A DNA stretch of 36,187 nucleotides. Source: a virus. Positions within the stretch are counted from its first letter, which is position 1, and each line of letters starts with the position of its first letter. Positions 1,528 to 36,187 of this stretch are shown in pieces. The notes below the pieces were generated by a model. The model was given only the letters and a program-made list of their open reading frames with translations. It ran no database searches and was not told the origin of the DNA. A program made the translations under genes and the position numbers. The stretch is taken from IMG/VR virus record IMGVR_UViG_3300000385_000001, positions 1 to 36,187 of that record. One strand, given 5' to 3'.

Positions 1528-2505
1528 CTATTTAAGAAATAACTTTCTATCATCCTTATCAATTAAGTTTTCTTTACCTGAATATTTCTTTCCGCACTTA
1601 TCACAGGCATATCTCTGATATGCACCTTGTTTGGTGTATCTGAAGCCTTTTTTTATAAACTTATCACAACCACACACACAAACTGCACGCCCATAATAAG
1701 ATTGGAAATTAAGTGATTGATCCCATGCTTTTAATTTATCAAATACTTCTATTGTGGTTTCAACATCTTGAATATTATATTTCTTATTCTCTTTAAATGC
1801 TTCGATGTTTCCTTTTTCGCACTCGTCCCACATCTCTTCATTAGATGAAAATTTTCTAGTTATTCTCTTTGGTGTAAGACCTAAGAACTTAGCAATAAAA
1901 TCAAGTCTATTACTTGTAATTTTAAAGTACTTTCTAGCAATTTTTAAAGTATCAATTTGTTTTGAGAAGTGGACTGGCTTAAGTCCATATTGTAAAAACT
2001 TAGCGTTTATCTTTTTAATATCATACCTATCAGAGTTATGGCCCAGAATTATATCAGCTTTATTAAGTTGAGTATGAAGCTTTTTAACAATGGACTTATC
2101 ATTCCTAACATTCTTTTCTTCTCTTGTGTCATAGTAGTAAATTTCTTTCTCGTCTAAAAACTTCCCTGCCCATGAAAGTATGCTCCAATCATTAACAATT
2201 CTTGATGGCCTAATGTTTTGATTATATAGACCATACGTTTTAACAACCAATGCAAGGACTTCAAGGTCAAAGCAAAATATCTTTGGTGCACCTTGATAAA
2301 CATCAATTTTATCTGATTCTTTTGTATTTCTATTTGGTGTTAATCCAGCTTTTCTACATAAGCTGTTGTGTCCACCAAGTGCTCTCAATTTATTTTCTGA
2401 AATTCCTAAGTGATTATGTATGTCTTTTATTCGGGGTGTTCTTTCTAGGTCTTTTGCAAGTTTTTTGTAAGCTGAAATAGTTTCGTGTAGTTTCAGCTTG
2501 CTCAT
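1528..2505 (-). CDS. RNase H-like DEDD exonuclease with HNH-associated repeat and zinc ribbon
   Basis: A 325-aa protein with three parts. Residues ~5-57 resemble the homing-endonuclease-associated repeat (AYKKLAKDL, then RALGGHNSLCRKAGL). Residues ~75-258 are a DnaQ/RNase H-like fold of the RNase_H_2 type: D80 and E82 in FDLE, D162 in GHNSDRYD and D247 in YNIQD fit the metal-binding DEDD set. Residues ~276-304 carry a zinc ribbon (CVCGC, then CDKC). It is probably a 3'-5' exonuclease or structure-specific nuclease acting on DNA or RNA. It lies in the late operon after the lysis genes, 1 bp from the lipoprotein gene, rather than with replication genes. The fold call is firm; substrate and role are unknown. 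Confidence 0.8.
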   Translation of the reverse strand: MSKLKLHETISAYKKLAKDLERTPRIKDIHNHLGISENKLRALGGHNSLCRKAGLTPNRNTKESDKIDVYQGAPKIFCFDLEVLALVVKTYGLYNQNIRPSRIVNDWSILSWAGKFLDEKEIYYYDTREEKNVRNDKSIVKKLHTQLNKADIILGHNSDRYDIKKINAKFLQYGLKPVHFSKQIDTLKIARKYFKITSNRLDFIAKFLGLTPKRITRKFSSNEEMWDECEKGNIEAFKENKKYNIQDVETTIEVFDKLKAWDQSLNFQSYYGRAVCVCGCDKFIKKGFRYTKQGAYQRYACDKCGKKYSGKENLIDKDDRKLFLK

Positions 2506-6970: not shown

Positions 6971-7731
6971 GCGTCTACTCCAATTAAGTTCATTGTTAAA
7001 TCAGTTGCAGAAAATGTTGATCCATCACTTTGAAGAAATATTTCTGAGGCAGCTGCAAGACTTATAGGTATTTTCCCGCCACCATTGGTAACTCTACCAA
7101 GCAAGTTACCACTTGTTGCAGCATCATAAATCGAAACAGTAACACCACCCTTTAAAATTATTTCTAGCTCAACTGCCTTTGTACTTGCTGGCACTTCCAT
7201 TAATGCAGCTGTTCTTGATCCACTTGGTATTGATAAAGAGGCATTAAAATAAGAATCAATAACTCTCTTATTAGCTTCTTGCGAAGTCAGCTTTTGAATT
7301 TCTGCCAGCAAAGTGTCCTGCTTAGCACTCGTAGAAAAATCTTTTGATTCTAAGCTTGCAAGGGTTGTTTGTGTTGCATAGTCCTTACCATCTAGGCTTG
7401 CCAGCAAAACTCTCGCAGCTTCAAGAGTCGTCTGAGTAGCAAAATCTTTACCGTCCAAACTAGCAAGCAAAACCCTAGCTGCCTCAAGAGTGGTCTGTGT
7501 TGCAAAGTCCTTTGCGTTTATAGAAGTTAATTGAGTTATAGTATCGTCTTGTTTTGCCTCAGTTGCAGGATCTAACTCTGTGCCATCAGGGTTTAACTGT
7601 TTAACAGGTAGAGGCTTAGAGTTAGCAGGGGTTTCTGTGTCCTCTAAGACAGTTGTGTTAGTGCCATCCTCTAAAAAAGACGCTGGACTTGCCGCAATTT
7701 GCAATGATACTGGAGGATATATAAAAGTCAT
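6967..7731 (-). CDS. Virion protein with 21-residue tandem repeats, probable fibre or tail component
   Basis: A 254-aa protein. Residues 74-94 and 95-115 are two identical 21-aa repeats (KDFATQTTLEAARVLLASLDG); a shortened third unit starts KDYATQTTL at 116 and a fourth, degenerate one KDFSTSAKQ at 130. Such units (with the EAKQDDTITQLTSINAKD lead-in) are common in phage fibre and collar proteins, where they form a coiled stalk. The C-terminal ~90 residues (VELEIILKGGVTVSIYDAA) look like a small beta domain. It sits between a small virion protein (1-bp overlap) and the tail fibre (4-bp overlap), which suggests it links the fibre to the tail or caps the stalk. Precise role unknown. Confidence 0.7.
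   Translation of the reverse strand: MTFIYPPVSLQIAASPASFLEDGTNTTVLEDTETPANSKPLPVKQLNPDGTELDPATEAKQDDTITQLTSINAKDFATQTTLEAARVLLASLDGKDFATQTTLEAARVLLASLDGKDYATQTTLASLESKDFSTSAKQDTLLAEIQKLTSQEANKRVIDSYFNASLSIPSGSRTAALMEVPASTKAVELEIILKGGVTVSIYDAATSGNLLGRVTNGGGKIPISLAAASEIFLQSDGSTFSATDLTMNLIGVDA
7384..7509 (-). repeat. Two 63-bp coding repeats within the 254-aa virion gene
   Basis: Units 7384-7446 and 7447-7509 encode the same 21 residues but differ at about 15 of 63 bases, all silent. The duplication is therefore old and has been held at the protein level. Confidence 0.8.
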
Positions 7732-8087
7732 TACGCCCCCTTAGCCGTTTTAAATAGTGTTGCAGTCATATTTCCACTACCACTACTTGATATGTATTTA
7801 AGTCTGATATATTTAAATGCTTTTACATCTATAAGAATTGTGTGCTGCTTAGGTGTTATTGTGTCATCAATAGAAATTACAGATCCAAAATTAAGTGTGT
7901 GCACATTTGATTGGTCATCCTTATTTGCAATTTCAACTTGTAACTCACCATCTGCATCACCAGACCAATCGACCAAATAAGTTAAAGAGTCATCAAGCGA
8001 AACATCTGTCCAATCACTAACATAATCTGCCGAAATATCTTGATTGTTAAAAATGTCGTATGGTTTTGAAAATCGTCTACGTCCCAT
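7731..8087 (-). CDS. Small beta-rich virion protein
   Basis: A 118-aa protein starting MGRRRFSKPYDIF, with no membrane segment and a pattern of short beta strands (YLVDWSGDADGELQVEIA, then ILIDVKAFKYIRLKYISSS). The end, SSSGSGNMTATLFKTAKGA, is typical of small phage structural proteins that form a jelly-roll. A strong ribosome binding site (AAGGGGGA) lies just upstream, and a 64-bp spacer separates it from the preceding ejection-protein gene, the largest gap in this part of the operon. It overlaps the next gene by 1 bp. It may be a head- or tail-decorating protein; no family could be named. Confidence 0.65.
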   Translation of the reverse strand: MGRRRFSKPYDIFNNQDISADYVSDWTDVSLDDSLTYLVDWSGDADGELQVEIANKDDQSNVHTLNFGSVISIDDTITPKQHTILIDVKAFKYIRLKYISSSGSGNMTATLFKTAKGA

Positions 8088-8151
8088 CAGTCCCCCTTGT
8101 AGGCTTAGGTTGTACCCCTAGACTCTCTATGACTGATGAGAAAAATATTAC

Positions 8152-10944
8152 TTATGATAAATTATCGAGCTTAGTCTTAAATCTGTTAGCCTGAGAAACT
8201 TCTCTTAAGCCAGTAACCCTTAACTCGTTTACGTTTCTTTTATTATCTTGTATCTGTGCCTGATCTTGTTGCATCTGTCCTTGCAATACTTGTAAGTTTA
8301 CAGGCATTAATGAACTAGCACCCATGACAGATAGCATTTTATAAAGTGATTTCTTTTGTTGATAATCTAAAGATTTAACTTCACTAACCCTTGATGTTAT
8401 TTCATCATAAATTAATTCGTATGTTTTAGGATATAATGCTCTAAGAGTTTCAACACCCTCTGGATAAACTAAGCCATCATTAAGTTGTTTAAGTACCAAA
8501 TCAGGATTATTGGCATAGTTAAAATACTTCATAAATTTATGCTTTGCTGATTTAGATGGTTTGTAATTATTTAAGTAACCTATCCCTTCGTATGAATTTG
8601 GCTTTTTCTCTTTTAAAAACTGAAAAACTTGCATCATTTTTGATGAGTAAGCCTCTGATGTTTTAGGTGCATTATCAAAAAGAATCTTGTTTTTTGTTGT
8701 TAAGTCTTCTAAGGTTTTGTCTGGATCATTTTCAAAATCAGTTATTATTTCAATTGCTTTTTCGTAGTCCCTTGACTCACCTGCGTTTAATGTTGATATT
8801 GTAGGTGCTTGTCTTGATCTTGTTATAAAATTATCAACAGAGTTTGAAATATTAATTAATGCCTTGTTATTTGCTTTCTCCATGCCCTTTAGCACATCAA
8901 CGGTTTCCTTAATGTATTTATTAATGCCTTTTTCACCTTGCTTATAAAGCATGTACTGTAAACCTGACTGCCCATGAAGAGCAATATTGAATAAATTTAA
9001 AAACTGTTCAGCTGTATTTGTGTCACTTGCATTAATTGGTGCGGGTATAGCATTAAAAATCTCTGCAAGCTCATCAATTTTATCAAGAGATTGATCGCCA
9101 AAAAGTAAATATCTATGTTTATCATTTCTTTTAACGTTACTTATAAATCTCTTTGCATTAAACTCTGTTTGTCCAGTAAGAGATTTTTTATATAGCTCTG
9201 CCATTTTTGATGCTCTAGCATCCTCGTAAGCCTCTGGTGCAAATGCTCTTATTTTATCTAGTTTGGATTTATCATACTGGTTTACAATTTTATTTCTTAG
9301 TTTTGCATCATCTAAAGAGTTTATCTTTTTTTGAAAGTCTTTAAAGTTTTTTGCCTTAACACCTATCGCCTCACCAACTTCTTGTGCCTCTTTATTTATA
9401 AGTTTATAATACTCATCTGCTTTACTAAGCTTACTAGGTAAATCGCCACCTATGGCATTTGCTGCCTCTTTAGTAACTTTGTTTCTTAATGTTGTTAGTT
9501 CATCATAAATATCTTTAATTACCTCATAATCCTCAGAACCGTAAGAAGCTTTAAGTCTCCTACCGTATGCAGACCTAACTTGTTTTAGCTCTGATAAATT
9601 AGTCATATCAAAGTTATCTTTTAATTGCTTAAAATACTTATCTGAATTAAAAACACCAACATACCTACGCCCTGAAAGTCTTTCTATAACCTCGTCAACA
9701 TCATCCTGAATTAATGGCACACGCTCAAGTTGATCACCTAAGTCATCATATAACTTAGATGCAGTGTTATTCATATCATCAAGTAAACCTGTTACTTTGC
9801 CCTTGATAGTTTGTGCAAATTCTTGTGCGGGTTTATCAATATCCACACCATTTAAGATGCCCATTGTTTCACGCTCAAGCTCTTCATATAAAACGTCATA
9901 CTTTGCACGTACCTTTTCGCCAAATGCAGTTGGTTGTTTCCTAAGGCTTGATTCTGTCATTCTAAAAAGCCAATTATCAGATGCAGCACCCAAGGGCTCA
10001 TCTGCTAAGTCTGGACGACCAGCTGACTTAAATCTTTGCTCAATTGCTTTTCTTATTTTGTCTTCACTTAGGCTTTCAAAGTTAGTGCTTACCAGTTCAT
10101 CATCAAGGCTTGTCTTTTTTACAAGGGAATCTAAGTTCTTACCTTTAAAAGATTTACTTAGTATCGATCTAGTTGCATCGCCAACCTTTTTTATTCCACT
10201 ACCCGCTAAACTAAGTGTTGTGCCTGTGCCACCACCAATTAAAGCACCCTCAGAGGCGTATTTTACAAGGTTTTCAGCGTTAAACTCAGCATCACCTATG
10301 GCATCCTCAGTTAAAAGCTGTCCTGATCCATATAAAGCACCCTCAACGGCACTACCAACACCTGCCTTAGTTGCATTTTCTACTATTTTACTAACTGATT
10401 TACTGGCAATTTTACCTGTTGCCTTGCGTGCTGCTACCTTACCAGCTGCCAAACCTGCTCTTGTTGCAAGTGCTGGTGCCGTCCTTGCTGCAATAGATCC
10501 CGCAACGCTTGTACCACCTGTTAAAAAAGCTGGTGCGATGGCACCTGTAAGCTCCCCACCAAGTGATGCAGTTGGGTTTAAATCTCTATAAAGTTTTAAG
10601 GCCTCTGGCTTTAAAAGCTCTAGCTTTGTTAATGCTTGATCTGATAGCCCAAAAGTTAAACCTCTGGCAGCACCTAGTGCAGCTGCCGTTGCCTCTGCAC
10701 CAATCCCCTCACCAAACTCTGCTTTTGTAGCGTCTTCTTGCTTCATTCTGGGTGAGTAAAAAGTATAACCACCAGCAAATGCACGTGCAGCATTTTCGCT
10801 TGGTATAGTACCTCTTTCACCTTCTGGGCTAATTACTTCAATCTCAACGCCTTTTTCAAAAGCAAACTCACCAGATGCAATTTTTCTCTCTACATCAGTG
10901 TAGTCATTGACTAGCTTTTTGTTTTTAACGTCAACTATTTTCAT
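8152..10944 (-). CDS. Large internal virion/DNA ejection protein candidate
   Basis: A 930-aa protein. The N-terminal ~70 residues form a small domain (EIEVISPEGERGTIPSENA, then AFAGGYTFYS). Residues ~78-260 are rich in Ala and Gly with several moderately hydrophobic stretches (AEATAAALGAARGLTFGL, AGSIAARTAPALATRAGLA), which could insert into membranes. The remaining ~650 residues are charged and largely helical. Size, composition and position behind the tail hub, next to two other coiled-coil virion proteins, match the internal (ejection) proteins of short-tailed phages such as P22 gp16 or T7 gp15/gp16. No lytic transglycosylase motif was seen. It overlaps the previous gene by 4 bp. Role is inferred. 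Confidence 0.65.
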   Translation of the reverse strand: MKIVDVKNKKLVNDYTDVERKIASGEFAFEKGVEIEVISPEGERGTIPSENAARAFAGGYTFYSPRMKQEDATKAEFGEGIGAEATAAALGAARGLTFGLSDQALTKLELLKPEALKLYRDLNPTASLGGELTGAIAPAFLTGGTSVAGSIAARTAPALATRAGLAAGKVAARKATGKIASKSVSKIVENATKAGVGSAVEGALYGSGQLLTEDAIGDAEFNAENLVKYASEGALIGGGTGTTLSLAGSGIKKVGDATRSILSKSFKGKNLDSLVKKTSLDDELVSTNFESLSEDKIRKAIEQRFKSAGRPDLADEPLGAASDNWLFRMTESSLRKQPTAFGEKVRAKYDVLYEELERETMGILNGVDIDKPAQEFAQTIKGKVTGLLDDMNNTASKLYDDLGDQLERVPLIQDDVDEVIERLSGRRYVGVFNSDKYFKQLKDNFDMTNLSELKQVRSAYGRRLKASYGSEDYEVIKDIYDELTTLRNKVTKEAANAIGGDLPSKLSKADEYYKLINKEAQEVGEAIGVKAKNFKDFQKKINSLDDAKLRNKIVNQYDKSKLDKIRAFAPEAYEDARASKMAELYKKSLTGQTEFNAKRFISNVKRNDKHRYLLFGDQSLDKIDELAEIFNAIPAPINASDTNTAEQFLNLFNIALHGQSGLQYMLYKQGEKGINKYIKETVDVLKGMEKANNKALINISNSVDNFITRSRQAPTISTLNAGESRDYEKAIEIITDFENDPDKTLEDLTTKNKILFDNAPKTSEAYSSKMMQVFQFLKEKKPNSYEGIGYLNNYKPSKSAKHKFMKYFNYANNPDLVLKQLNDGLVYPEGVETLRALYPKTYELIYDEITSRVSEVKSLDYQQKKSLYKMLSVMGASSLMPVNLQVLQGQMQQDQAQIQDNKRNVNELRVTGLREVSQANRFKTKLDNLS

Positions 10945-12382: not shown

Positions 12383-13198
12383 TTAACCCTTTTTCTTCTT
12401 TTTCATTTCTTGAATCTCTTTATTGAGCTCTGAAATAGATGCAAGCATGGCACTAAAACCTTGTGACACATCAACCATTTTCCCATCTTTGGTGTCTTCA
12501 ACCATTTGCTTCCCAAGCTCAGATTTTTCTAAATCTTGTGCCATCACACCAGACTTTTCACCTTTGCCATTTTTTTCATCTTTATATTCGTATGTATAAG
12601 ACTCTAAGGCATTTAAAAATTCATCAACCTTATTAGTTGCTTCACTATCTGATTTCTTAATATTTTTCTTCATGTTTTCATCAGAAAAATAAGACGCAGC
12701 TGCCATCCCTGCGTTACCCAGAAAGCTAGACTGCCTGTTCATAGTTGCTTGATCTGCTTGGTTTTGCATTTGAGCATTTTGAAGTGCTACACCTTGCTGA
12801 GCTGCTAAGTACCTATTCATTGCATCCAATGCACTTTGCCTTTCTTGCATTCTTGCAGTTGCTGATGCCTGAGCAAGTTCTTGGCCTTGGTTTTTTGATG
12901 CCTCTGCAACGTTTCTACTTAGCAGAGCTGGATTACTCACACCCTTAGTGCTTTGACCTAGTGCCATTGCGTTTTTTAGGTTATCTTGTTGGGCCCTTTC
13001 ATATTGCTGAATTGCCATTGAGTCAGACTCACCTGCAATATCTTTCTCAAGCTCATCTGTTAAGTTACTAGCTCTTTTTTTATCAGCTGCACTTAACTCA
13101 GGTGTTTCAAGCTCAGGTGTCTCCATACCAGTCATTTGTGCAACTGAGCCCTTGCCAGTTCCAAATGGTTTTCTGAAAAAACTATTTTTGCCGCCCAT
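12383..13198 (-). CDS. Virion protein with C-terminal S74 intramolecular chaperone domain
   Basis: A 271-aa protein. Residues ~28-165 are helical, rich in Gln, Ala and Met (AQMQNQADQATM, AQQGVALQNAQ), like the small ejection proteins of podoviruses. From 172 it shows the Peptidase_S74 chaperone pattern: SDENMKKNI with the likely catalytic pair Ser172 and Lys177, then ESYTYEYKD, SGVMAQDLE and the closing helix SAMLASISELNKEI. S74 domains usually terminate fibres and spikes, fold the trimer, then cut themselves off before the serine. Here the N-terminal part has no fibre features. It may trimerise an internal or tail-tip protein and be removed during assembly. The domain call is solid; the virion location is inferred. 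Confidence 0.75.
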   Translation of the reverse strand: MGGKNSFFRKPFGTGKGSVAQMTGMETPELETPELSAADKKRASNLTDELEKDIAGESDSMAIQQYERAQQDNLKNAMALGQSTKGVSNPALLSRNVAEASKNQGQELAQASATARMQERQSALDAMNRYLAAQQGVALQNAQMQNQADQATMNRQSSFLGNAGMAAASYFSDENMKKNIKKSDSEATNKVDEFLNALESYTYEYKDEKNGKGEKSGVMAQDLEKSELGKQMVEDTKDGKMVDVSQGFSAMLASISELNKEIQEMKKKKKG

Positions 13199-18020: not shown

Positions 18021-18036
18021 AAATACTCCACATTTG

Positions 18037-18056
18037 GCGGGGGATATAACCCCCGC
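18037..18056. other. GC-rich stem-loop between capsid and decoration genes
   Basis: GCGGGGG at 18037-18043 pairs perfectly with CCCCCGC at 18050-18056 around a 6-nt loop. It lies 19 bp past the capsid stop. In the direction of transcription (minus) no U-run follows, so it is not a standard terminator there; the U-rich tail is on the plus strand. It may protect the 3' end of capsid mRNA, attenuate downstream transcription, or stop antisense transcription. Confidence 0.7.
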
Positions 18057-18075
18057 TATTTTTATTCTTAACAGA

Positions 18076-19275
18076 TTAGCTTAAAGCAATAGTCATGTTG
18101 TATGCAGGTGCATTACACTCAACTTGCTTATAACCACCAATTCTTAACTCGTACCCATCAGAGTCGTTTTCTCTAAGGAACTTATTACCATCAAGGTCTA
18201 AGATTCTGATTGGTGCCTTAAGTGAATCAAGTCTCCAAGTGTTACGAGTAACAACAGAGATTTGGTTAGATGCTACGTTATCATCCTCAAGAACAGTGAT
18301 TGATCTTTTACCAGAGTGAACCTGCACCCCTCTAAAACCAATATCAGCATAAGGACTCTTAACATCTACATAATTAACTTTTGAACCAAGCTCAAGAAGT
18401 AAGTCACCCATATTCCCAGAGTTCATAAAAGCAAAGTCTGGCCTTGCACCTTCACGCCCAATTCTTGAAAGACCCTTAACAAGTGCTTCCTCAGTACTCA
18501 TACCAGATCCATCAAAGCGAACTCCTCCAAGTCTAGTTGGATCAACTGATCTATCTAAACCAAAGAAACTATCGCCTGATGTTGGTGCAGTACTTGGAAC
18601 CCAAGCATTAAAACCACTCATCTTTGAGTTTCTATCACCATCAGTAAATAAATAATCACCAGCTGCCAGAGAGGTAGACTTAGTATCAACTTCGATTGTA
18701 CCAAGGTCACGATCAACAGCAACAACTGTCATTCTACCTGATCTTGTACCACCAGTTGTCTCAGCTGCAGCTGCCTCAAGGACTTGATCAACTTCATAGT
18801 GAATGATGTCTTCAACATCACTAAGAGTTAAAACGTTTCCAGAAATACCGCCAGTTGCAATTTGACCAATAGAACCTGATCCATTACCCCAAATTGCTTG
18901 AGAATCAGATTGAGCAGCACTCATCATGGCACCGTCAATTTCTTGTTTTAATAAGTTTACAAATGCACCCTTATCGTTTTCGCTTGACTCGATAGTCTCA
19001 CCATCAAATGCAGCGATTGAGTAATCTTTAGCTCTTGTAATAAAGAAAGCACCATACTTAGAGCTACCCTTATTTGCTTGTGCTCTAGCAAATGAGCTTG
19101 AACGCCCACGGTTAGAACCATAAACAACTGGAACCTGCATATTAAAACCGTAAAACATTTCCATTTTAGGGATTAATGCAAGCCAAGGGTGATTCTTATA
19201 GCATAAATTTTGAATTTCTTTTTGAGTATAGAGCGTTTTAAGTACCGCTCTGGCTTTAGTTAAATCTAAAGTCAT
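18076..19275 (-). CDS. Major capsid protein
   Basis: A 399-aa HK97-fold-type capsid protein that would build the icosahedral shell. Features: N-terminal helix (ALKTLYTQKEIQNLCYKN-like, residues ~9-28), an E-loop region with SSSFARAQANKGSSKYG at ~59-76, the acidic/hydrophobic core with ITRAKDYSIAAFDGETIE, a long spine helix with GAFVNLLKQEIDGAMM, and a C-terminal beta/A-domain part (FRGVQVHSGKRSITVLEDDN). No N-terminal protease-cleaved delta domain is evident; a separate scaffold gene precedes it. An 82-bp leader with AAGGA before ATG 19275 and the hairpin downstream point to independent control of expression level. The position between scaffold and adaptor supports the call. Confidence 0.88.
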   Translation of the reverse strand: MTLDLTKARAVLKTLYTQKEIQNLCYKNHPWLALIPKMEMFYGFNMQVPVVYGSNRGRSSSFARAQANKGSSKYGAFFITRAKDYSIAAFDGETIESSENDKGAFVNLLKQEIDGAMMSAAQSDSQAIWGNGSGSIGQIATGGISGNVLTLSDVEDIIHYEVDQVLEAAAAETTGGTRSGRMTVVAVDRDLGTIEVDTKSTSLAAGDYLFTDGDRNSKMSGFNAWVPSTAPTSGDSFFGLDRSVDPTRLGGVRFDGSGMSTEEALVKGLSRIGREGARPDFAFMNSGNMGDLLLELGSKVNYVDVKSPYADIGFRGVQVHSGKRSITVLEDDNVASNQISVVTRNTWRLDSLKAPIRILDLDGNKFLRENDSDGYELRIGGYKQVECNAPAYNMTIALS

Positions 19276-19357
19276 GTGTAATCCTTTGTTAATAAGTTAA
19301 ATAAAATTTTTATTTGCTCACTAACTGATGAACCAACATGACTGCGATTAGTTTAAT

Positions 19358-25119: not shown

Positions 25120-25504
25120 CTACTTCTTCCATCGCTTCCTTAAGCATCTCAAGCAGCTGATCATCAGGCATTTGCTTTAAACTCACAGATGTTGCTTGTG
25201 TTGGTTTACCTATTGTTCGATCTATAAAGCTATCAATTACATATTGTTTCTTTTTCTTAAGAGCATCTGCCATGATCTCATGCAAATATGTTCTATCTTT
25301 GGCTTTTAAAACCTTGTCAGCATCTGCCTTGGTGTAAGTAAGCAAGTGAGTTACTCTGGCAATCTCTGTTTTCAGAGCTGCCCTAATACACTTCACCTCT
25401 GGATCAAGCTTATTTCTAGGCACATTGCCTTTCTGAAACTTGCCAGACTTATCCCTATCGCCCTTTTGAGCGGGCTTCTCCGACTTTTTTTGCTTATGCG
25501 TCAA
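25112..25504 (-). CDS. Putative terminase small subunit
   Basis: A 130-aa basic protein. N-terminal GDRDKSGKFQKGNVPRNK matches the DUF5681-type start found on many phage proteins that precede terminase genes. The middle (KCIRAALKTEIARVTHLL) and KKKKQYVIDSFIDRTIGKP form helices that could bind DNA, and the acidic C-terminus (QLLEMLKEAMEEVDG) could contact TerL. It overlaps the sigma gene by 4 bp. TerL lies five genes downstream rather than next to it. The call rests on composition and position; it could equally be another DNA-binding late protein. Confidence 0.5.
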   Translation of the reverse strand: MTHKQKKSEKPAQKGDRDKSGKFQKGNVPRNKLDPEVKCIRAALKTEIARVTHLLTYTKADADKVLKAKDRTYLHEIMADALKKKKQYVIDSFIDRTIGKPTQATSVSLKQMPDDQLLEMLKEAMEEVDG

Positions 25505-26175
25505 ATTAACTCCATTTGTGGTGTGTAAACGTTCTTTTCTAAATTAACTTGTGTTTTAAATATATTTACTGGCTCTAAGTCCCAACCCTCTCCATTGTCC
25601 TCTGCTTTCATATCGAAATGCTCGGATAAACCAAAGGCATATATAATCTGATTTACCCATTTGTTATCTATTTCAAATGGATCATCAATAAGTTCACAAA
25701 ACTCTTTAAATTTTTGATTAATTCTTTCACGTGAGAAATTTGAATCTCTTGAGATATCTGAAAGCGTATGACCGAGAATAAAGCGAGCTACTAACAAAAC
25801 TCTGTCATCCTTGCTTGCAAGTCTAGCGACTAGATCCCACTTAATATCTAACTTTAGATCATCAAAAGAATTGTAAAACAAGCCAATATTTAACAGATCA
25901 AAGCTATCAACTTCACATGTTTGCTCGTTAATTTCCTGATGATATCTTTGGTTTTTTGGGCTTTTTAAGAAGTCTAAAACAGTACCATTACAATGATTCT
26001 GGATGAAACTCTTCCAAGGCTCGTCAAAGTTAATTTTTTCAAAATGCCTTAAGATTCGTTCAAATCCAGTTTGCTTAATGTCTTCTTTAACTTCTTTAGG
26101 TAAATGAGCAGCATATTTATTTATTGAATAATCAAGATACTCACTGGCCTTAGCTATTACTGATTCCTTGTCCAT
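25501..26175 (-). CDS. Phage sigma-70-family sigma factor, candidate late-gene activator
   Basis: A 224-aa protein with sigma region 2-like helices near residues 20-75 (LPKEVKEDIKQTGFERIL, then SFIQNHCNGTVLDFLKSP, compare the DxLR end of region 2) and a region 4 helix-turn-helix near 127-160 (GHTLSDISRDSNFSRERINQ), the best match. A ~40-residue linker separates them. The C-terminal ~60 residues are acidic and match nothing I know. It would direct host RNA polymerase to phage promoters. As the first gene of a 25-kb late operon in a phage without its own polymerase, it is the natural late switch. Its Shine-Dalgarno (GAGAGGG) lies in one arm of an inverted repeat. Family fairly sure; targets inferred. 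Confidence 0.7.
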   Translation of the reverse strand: MDKESVIAKASEYLDYSINKYAAHLPKEVKEDIKQTGFERILRHFEKINFDEPWKSFIQNHCNGTVLDFLKSPKNQRYHQEINEQTCEVDSFDLLNIGLFYNSFDDLKLDIKWDLVARLASKDDRVLLVARFILGHTLSDISRDSNFSRERINQKFKEFCELIDDPFEIDNKWVNQIIYAFGLSEHFDMKAEDNGEGWDLEPVNIFKTQVNLEKNVYTPQMELI

Positions 26176-26177
26176 GT

Positions 26178-26247
26178 CCCTCTCACTGTGTTGACTGTCT
26201 TATTCTCGATTGTGTGTAATAAAACGGTATGAAAAACAGTGTGAGGG
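26178..26247 (-). promoter_or_regulatory. Late-operon leader with an inverted repeat covering the sigma Shine-Dalgarno
   Basis: CCCTCTCACTG at 26178-26188 and CAGTGTGAGGG at 26237-26247 form an 11-bp inverted repeat with one mismatch, 48 bp apart. The first copy includes the GAGAGGG Shine-Dalgarno of the sigma gene (ATG 26175). If the transcript includes both arms, they could pair and hide the ribosome binding site; if transcription starts between them, the pair may be a protein-binding operator. A weak TTTACA near 26253-26248 on the minus strand is a possible -35 box, with no convincing -10. The late promoter probably lies between 26176 and 26262. Confidence 0.5.
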
Positions 26248-26261
26248 TGTAAAGGCCTAAT

Positions 26262-26846
26262 TTAGTAGCAGTTAGTAAAGACTGAATTGCCCACTTGATT
26301 TGAATGGCAATTTATATTGGTATTGGTGTTGTAGTTATTGTTATTGTTATTATTAAATCCTTCTTTAATAGAATTCATAAATTCAGCATTTCTTTGCTTT
26401 TCAGATATTTCTAAATCTTTAAGTTCTTTTTTAATTTTAAAATCGATGTTGTCATTGTTACTTAATCTATAAAAAGTTTCTATATTATAAAGAGTTGAAA
26501 ATATATCCTTGTTTAATTCTGTATATTTCATAGGGTAAGAATTTTGCATTTTCAAAACTAGCTCTGTAATGGGGTATTTATAACTTAGATCCAATCTATT
26601 TTTAAACATGAAAATTAATTGTTTCCTACATTCCATATCAATCTTATTAAAGTCTTTTTCATTGCATTTAACATGAATAAATTTTGCAATAGATTCAGAA
26701 TCTTTAAAAAACTCATCAAAAACATAGTTTTTCTTAACTTTATGTTTTAAATACTTTTTTTTAACTTTTTCTATATTTTTTTTTGAATTAATGCTTGAGC
26801 AAGATATTAAGAAAATCATAATAAAACTTAAGAAAACCTTAATCAT
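26262..26846 (-). CDS. Lipoprotein, probable lysogenic-conversion (moron) gene
   Basis: A 194-aa protein with signal MIKVFLSFIMIFLISC and lipobox at Cys16, so it should be lipidated and held in the envelope. The mature part is lysine-rich and helical with two cysteines near the middle, then an Asn run and the C-terminal motif NINCHSNQVGNSVFTNCY, with two Cys likely forming a disulfide; similar TNC-type tails occur on bacterial envelope lipoproteins. It has its own Shine-Dalgarno (AAGGAG) and a ~195-bp upstream gap with possible AT-rich promoter. It lies between repressor and late operon and is more AT-rich than its neighbours. An envelope role during lysogeny, such as superinfection exclusion, is inferred only. 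Confidence 0.75.
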   Translation of the reverse strand: MIKVFLSFIMIFLISCSSINSKKNIEKVKKKYLKHKVKKNYVFDEFFKDSESIAKFIHVKCNEKDFNKIDMECRKQLIFMFKNRLDLSYKYPITELVLKMQNSYPMKYTELNKDIFSTLYNIETFYRLSNNDNIDFKIKKELKDLEISEKQRNAEFMNSIKEGFNNNNNNNYNTNTNINCHSNQVGNSVFTNCY

Positions 26847-27465: not shown

Positions 27466-27478
27466 AGCGTATTCGCTC
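27465..27478. promoter_or_regulatory. Operator-like palindrome GAGCGTATTCGCTC
   Basis: A 14-bp palindrome with core GCGTATTCGC, repeated in reverse complement at 27499-27508. It adjoins the repressor -35 region. It is the likely binding site of the XRE repressor or the Cro-like protein. Confidence 0.65.
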
Positions 27479-27487
27479 AAAAAACTA

Positions 27488-27516
27488 TTGATTTAAATGC
27501 GAATACGCACTAATCT
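27488..27516 (+). promoter_or_regulatory. Probable early promoter
   Basis: TTGATT (27488-27493), a 17-bp spacer and TAATCT (27511-27516) make a fair sigma-70 promoter. The second operator lies in the spacer, so a bound repressor would block it. The start site would be at about 27522-27523, at the ATG of the first early gene, and no Shine-Dalgarno exists there. Confidence 0.6.
27499..27508. promoter_or_regulatory. Operator-like palindrome GCGAATACGC
   Basis: This 10-bp element is the exact reverse complement of 27467-27476. The two centres are 32 bp apart, about three helical turns, and this copy lies between the -35 and -10 of the early promoter. Confidence 0.65.
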
Positions 27517-36030: not shown

Positions 36031-36187
36031 TTAAAAACTAACAATCCCAATAGCATCTTGCAAGTGTGATGGTGATAAATGAGCATATTTCATTGTGTCT
36101 TTGAGGTCTGAATGTCCAAGTATTTTTTGCAGTGTAAATATGTTGCCATCATTCATCATGAAATGACTTGCAAAGGTGTGTCTTAAG
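36031..36187 (-). CDS. int: Tyrosine integrase, C-terminal part (continues at 1-944 in the circle)
   Basis: The C-terminal part of the integrase seen at the left end. The 33 bases 36155-36187 are shared with 1-33. Here HDLRHTFASHF continues with MMNDGNIFTLQKILGHSDL and KDTMKYAHLSPS, which hold the remaining catalytic residues His329 (LGHS) and Tyr338 (MKYAHL), then ends GIVSF with a TAA stop at 36033-36031. The protein is complete (355 aa) only when the two ends are joined. It is convergent with the early operon, 5 bp from its last stop codon. Confidence 0.95.
   Translation of the reverse strand, partial: LRHTFASHFMMNDGNIFTLQKILGHSDLKDTMKYAHLSPSHLQDAIGIVSF
36155..36187. repeat. 33-bp terminal direct repeat, right copy
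   Basis: Identical to positions 1-33. It lies in the integrase codons for DLRHTFASHFMM. The seam is in frame, which supports a circular genome or a circularly permuted one read through the end. Confidence 0.9.

Follow-up and report, generated by a model that had tools for sequence, protein, structure and literature searches.

A sigma-70 family protein and a bipartite promoter-like motif suggest a late sigma factor in a group of uncultivated phages

How might a small phage with no recognized RNA polymerase of its own turn on its packaging, head and tail genes? The question is raised by the window analyzed here, a 36.2-kb virus record of 35% G+C, in which a sigma factor-like gene stands just ahead of the packaging genes. 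An initial annotation had proposed that this protein, in a phage with no polymerase, is the first gene product of a 25-kb late operon that it may activate in a positive loop; indeed, no RNA polymerase gene was recognized among the proteins scanned. A 33-base direct terminal repeat at 1-33 and 36155-36187 indicates that the genome is probably complete and circular or circularly permuted. The phage has genes for an integrase, a cI-like repressor and a Cro-like protein and, in an early block running rightward, for RecT, an HNH nuclease, a RecE-like exonuclease, an O-like replication protein and SSB, and is therefore probably temperate. Between the cI-like and Cro-like genes are two perfect GCGTATTCGC/GCGAATACGC sites (27467-27508, 32 bp apart), which have no further exact copy in the genome and are likely to be repressor operators. 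Leftward from 26175 runs a co-directional block that encodes RusA, TerL, the portal, the major head protein, an adaptor and ejection/tail proteins. The genes of immediate concern are as follows.

3-944: integrase gene
25501-26175 (-): sigma-70 family gene P0001, an uninterrupted ORF of 224 codons for amino acids
18076-19275 (-): major head protein (capsid) gene, phrog_14242, E 1.8e-17; proposed sigma target unit
7731-8087 (-): gene for a 118-residue protein, heading the distal late unit; proposed sigma target unit

Two other genes of the late strand deserve mention. The product of 12383-13198 (-), 271 residues long, was scored as a DNA ejection protein and contains in addition a Peptidase_S74 (endosialidase chaperone) domain (E 3.9e-10), which is unusual at such a distance from a tail spike gene. 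The gene at 1528-2505 (-), at the far end of the strand and remote from the replication genes, strongly matches phrog_403, a DNA polymerase exonuclease subunit (E 1.6e-71).

Judged by its sequence, P0001 is a sigma-70 family protein of sigma2-sigma4 (ECF-like) layout, and binding to core polymerase is predicted. The regions 2 and 4 that had been proposed are both supported and lie in order. The TIGR02937 (sigma70-ECF) model aligned over P0001 residues 24-157, thereby spanning both regions (E 2.9e-7), and matched two homologs with E-values of 1.4e-8 and 1.5e-11; the curated cut-off of the model was exceeded by only one of the three proteins (that with 1.5e-11) and not by P0001. PHROG 1740, annotated as RNA polymerase sigma factor, matched all three (6.7e-8, 7.4e-8 and 4.2e-12). 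Pfam Sigma70_r2 matched the two homologs below its cut-off (8.6e-5 and 1.8e-4), and P0001 alone gave only a region 4 match in Pfam (0.018). Hence, in profile searches the homologs support the sigma assignment more strongly than does P0001. Because the homologs differ mainly at third codon positions, the ORF is a real gene.

Structure prediction points the same way for region 2. The AlphaFold model of P0001 had a low overall confidence (mean pLDDT 55.7) that was fair in residues 1-70, and predicted residues 1-84 matched solved sigma region 2 structures, the best being T4 gp55 (Z 9.8) followed by sigma28, AlgU and sigmaE (about 8.5). The top full-length Foldseek matches were all sigma factors, none of which was significant by E-value. 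Region 4 in a separate model did not give a sigma4 match, whereas sequence profiles do match region 4. The protein can be divided into three parts.

25948-26145 (-): sigma region 2, residues ~11-76, from the structural match and from Pfam r2 in the homologs
25687-25851 (-): sigma region 4 helix-turn-helix, residues ~109-163, from Pfam and TIGR02937
25504-25686 (-): conserved C-terminal extension, residues 164-224

Within region 2 the segment KEDIKQTGF, which resembles the core-binding helix of region 2.2, is invariant in three phages, and a region 2 segment was aligned with gp47 of phage 7-11 by hhalign. In region 4, 53% of the residues are invariant among the three phages. The C-terminal extension is almost as well conserved (48% invariant versus 51-53% for the sigma regions), and no relative was found for it; its low-confidence model gave no fold match.

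The two homologs are from related uncultivated phages (P0002 in L002/G001, 61% identity; L007:340-1017 in G002/G003, 59% identity), and both genes lie directly upstream of packaging genes. The assignment of the sigma gene to the head of the packaging/late cluster thus stands, the position being kept in three related phages. These relatives were reached only through TerL, portal and capsid proteins; single-protein scans with the sigma gave no relatives in viral contigs, genome contigs or phage records, with no match among 50,697 of the last. Alignment of the portal to genome contigs found no prophage. In G001 a DNA methyltransferase-like gene (L004:13941-14624) is inserted right after the sigma gene.

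A place beside RusA and terminase genes is also typical of the RinA, ArpU and Q regulators, which do the same job. Hence, P0001 could be a late activator or antiterminator of that sort, its helix-turn-helix merely resembling sigma region 4 and acting together with host sigma. Weak matches of this kind were seen (P0001 to phrog_36, 0.036; the L007 homolog to Phage_antitermQ, 0.0064, and to phrog_79, 0.0088). However, region 2 is the best-supported part of P0001 and TIGR02937 aligns through both regions, whereas no RinA or ArpU model of NCBIfam matched at E <= 1 and the Q-model matches are weak and at the level of the helix-turn-helix, such that Q, RinA and ArpU give no significant profile match to the window sigma. 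Sigma region 2 is not known in these families. We consider such a regulator improbable and proceed with P0001 as a sigma factor.

If P0001 is a late sigma, its target promoters might be recognizable on the late strand. A bipartite motif, consisting of an AAGTNAt box followed by YTCRYCAGTYAKNGAR with the AGT cores 17-19 bp apart, lies 50-59 nt before the start codons of two unrelated genes.

19317-19345 (-): motif before the capsid gene, with boxes GCAGTCAT (19338-19345) and TTCATCAGTTAGTGAG (19317-19332)
8125-8154 (-): motif before the 118-residue protein gene, with boxes TAAGTAAT (8147-8154) and CTCATCAGTCATAGAG (8125-8140)

The motif was initially spotted by eye, and the box alignment and spacing were set with both classes of gap in view. 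An unbiased Gibbs search of nine late-strand gaps from three phages scored 156.7 versus 111 ± 2.7 in shuffles. When both strands of the window were scored with leave-one-phage-out matrices, the capsid gap gave 25.9 and the 118-residue protein gap 23.9, the next site giving 14.8; in this held-out scoring the motif was found before both genes in every phage examined. A matrix made only from capsid gaps ranked the 118-residue protein gap 2/72344 in the window and 3/69846 and 2/37876 in the relatives, and training on the latter gaps ranked the capsid gaps 2, 8 and 2, with rank 1 in L018. The upstream box by itself scored 46.4 versus 31.8 ± 2.5 in shuffles, with 0 of 60 shuffles reaching this value. 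A further downstream box near +18 was marginal, barely exceeding the maximum of the shuffles (41.4 versus 41.3), and we make no claim for it. As equivalent gaps share descent, the effective independence of these comparisons is small.

G001, G002 and L018 have the motif at the equivalent position of their capsid gaps. In L018, a contig found after the motif was fixed and stopping short of the sigma position, it is the single outstanding match (24.4, the next being 11.2). Both capsid-gap boxes are conserved and the stretch from the motif to the Shine-Dalgarno sequence is poorly so. Across the genomes of the window phage and its close relatives the motif is nearly confined to the capsid and tail regions. 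If the motif is a promoter, as we read it, the AAGTNA-to-YAKNGA spacing would be 15-17, as in sigma-70 family promoters. We infer that the phage sigma would be the protein that reads it.

The shared motif, unlike sigma-70 promoters, that had been expected upstream of all three genes was therefore found upstream of 19275 and 8087 and not upstream of 26175. The 235 bases upstream of or overlapping the window sigma start contain no match (best 4.6 versus 23.9-25.9 at the two target sites). Among the relatives, only G001 has the motif clearly before its sigma gene, where it ends 5 nt before the ATG and overlaps the Shine-Dalgarno sequence (it ranks 3 although excluded from training); that of G002 is weak. 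Given the absence of the motif before the window's own sigma gene, the positive loop first envisaged is not supported, and feed-forward control fits better. A scan for consensus sigma-70 promoters gave fewer matches than shuffles and nothing usable upstream of the sigma gene. That region does contain one short dyad.

26224-26240: dyad ACTGTTTTTCATACCGT, conserved in G001 and the sole exact copy in the window

The dyad is possibly a regulator site or a hairpin arm. It was rejected as a cI operator, the only two exact GCGWATWCGC sites both lying between cI and cro. Also rejected was CTCGATAA, seemingly common to the regions upstream of the sigma and 118-residue protein genes, which at the latter forms the last part of the upstream coding frame.

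The promoter-like motifs lie close to, and in part within, potential RNA hairpins.

26178-26247 (-): inverted repeat of the sigma leader (arms 26236-26247 and 26178-26189); the hairpin would cover the Shine-Dalgarno sequence
19270-19343 (-): hairpin of the capsid gene leader, whose 3' arm contains the start codon
8082-8141 (-): stem of the 118-residue protein gene leader, in which CUCAUCAGUC pairs with the start region GACUGAUGGG
18037-18056 (-): G+C-rich hairpin directly after the capsid gene, also present in G001 and G002

Among 83 gene starts the capsid leader was the most structured (fold z -5.2) and the sigma leader the second (z -3.2); four of the top five places went to the sigma and capsid leaders of the window and G001, in which upstream sequence pairs with the start codon or the ribosome-binding region. 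G001 has a hairpin at the equivalent place in its sigma leader, and the signal is weak in G002. At the 118-residue protein gene, where G002 has a compensatory change (C-to-T/G-to-A) in the stem, part of the motif pairs with the start codon and hence selection may act on the RNA.

These structures raise the alternative that the motif is an RNA element (a start-codon lock or a protein-binding site), or the target of a different phage regulator, rather than a sigma promoter. The pairing with its single compensatory change, the rank of the capsid and sigma leaders and the overlap of the G001 motif with the sigma Shine-Dalgarno sequence all speak for an RNA role. However, two boxes of slightly varying spacing at a similar distance before two unrelated genes are promoter-like, and conservation in the capsid gap is of the boxes and not of the sequence leading to the Shine-Dalgarno. 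Moreover, the two functions are united at one place in T4, where start-codon hairpins of e, soc, 49 and I-TevI silence read-through transcripts and the late promoters lie inside the 5' arm (PMC3014915). Thus, we regard a motif that is not a sigma promoter as fairly unlikely. The start-codon hairpins of the capsid and sigma genes recall those of T4 e and soc.

A lock against read-through would make sense, we hypothesize, as a cI-like gene and a small ORF lie upstream of the sigma gene on the same strand in both the window and G001. The small ORF of the window (26262-26846 (-), 194 residues, with a lipoprotein-like N-terminus) is located between the cI-like and sigma genes, and G001 has a different small secreted-looking ORF (L004:12826-13155) in the equivalent place. 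The 194-residue ORF is possibly a lysogenic-conversion or exclusion gene.

Three or more transcription units are suggested by the promoter-like motifs at 19317 and 8125 and by the hairpin that follows the capsid gene. Hence, of the 25-kb operon, the co-directional arrangement of the genes from 26175 to ~1528 holds, and the block is probably subdivided by the internal motifs and hairpin. In the region of that hairpin (18021-18075) the G001 version resembles an intrinsic terminator in the late direction, and the T run of the window is on the opposite side.

Motif and sigma gene co-occur, and more distant relatives without the sigma, contigs that are mostly fragments, are without the motif. The sister phages L021-L028, with capsid proteins 41-48% identical, had no detectable sigma and no strong motif before the capsid gene, and those read had no comparable gap there; as the contigs of this clade are mostly fragments, it is only for G005, a genome-sized contig (35.9 kb) that may or may not be complete, that the sigma can be called absent with reasonable security. 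The sigma could instead be an accessory factor that redirects host genes, like the sporulation-like sigmas of Bacillus phages, rather than a late switch. Nonessential phage sigmas of this kind exist, including in temperate phages (PMC9429907). Against such a role, the gene keeps its place ahead of the packaging genes in three phages, and the same phages have a dedicated motif that coincides with the late units; we judge an accessory role very improbable.

We therefore favor, as the probable explanation, a phage late sigma that replaces host sigma and directs host RNA polymerase to bipartite promoters of the capsid and distal units in a feed-forward manner. The phage sigma would take the place of host sigma on host RNA polymerase, and the polymerase so equipped would bind phage promoters having the upstream AAGTNAt box and the YTCRYCAGTYAKNGAR box. 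Transcription from these late promoters would start at ~19310 for the capsid unit and at ~8118 for the distal tail/lysis unit. For the timing of the late switch, we infer that the sigma and packaging genes would be transcribed first from another promoter, and the capsid and distal units then by way of the sigma. Hairpins over the sigma and capsid starts may silence read-through transcripts from the co-directional cI-side genes, and transcripts begun at the late promoters, being without the 5' arm, would be translated, as in T4 e and soc. A bolder proposal is that this temperate podovirus-like group independently evolved a T4-like switch, in which a two-box late sigma acts at promoters within start-codon RNA locks of the capsid and tail units, and in which the sigma gene has a corresponding lock of its own, so that transcripts reading through from the repressor side leave the prophage silent; we think this rather doubtful.

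The closest parallel is gp47 of Salmonella phage 7-11 (SaPh711_gp47; phiEco32-like), which like P0001 has the sigma2-sigma4 layout and matches TIGR02937. It reads bipartite late promoters, GTAAtg-(16)-aCTA, and its gene is preceded by a hairpin and no autoregulatory motif (PMC8948821), features that have counterparts in the window phage. The upstream box resembles the GTAAtg box by eye and the downstream boxes differ. No overall sequence relationship of gp47 and P0001 was detected (hhalign probability 0.6%, with only region 2.2 aligning), and gp47 is without the 60-residue C-terminal extension of P0001. Phage 7-11 also differs in genome size (89.9 kb); the features listed for 22-48 kb include no integrase, and its sigma gene lies in a set of genes that are transcribed in the direction opposite to that of the late cluster. 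T4 gp55 acts with gp33 and gp45 at TATAAATA, whereas the window phage has a region 4 and a bipartite motif. Xpf, the positive control factor of the defective prophage PBSX, has the sigma2-sigma4 group IV layout (PMC10141391) and, likened by description, also regulates a temperate element, although a Bacillus tail-like one. The window protein thus probably belongs with late sigmas of a kind already described (phage 7-11 gp47, T4 gp55, PBSX Xpf), the phage group itself being new.

The best-known phage late sigmas are those of large lytic phages. The phages of the present group are small and temperate and appear to use a late sigma instead of an antiterminator, and the promoter consensus is specific enough to test. 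Sister phages that have neither sigma nor motif provide a natural comparison, and the sigma-promoter pair may be orthogonal to host promoters.
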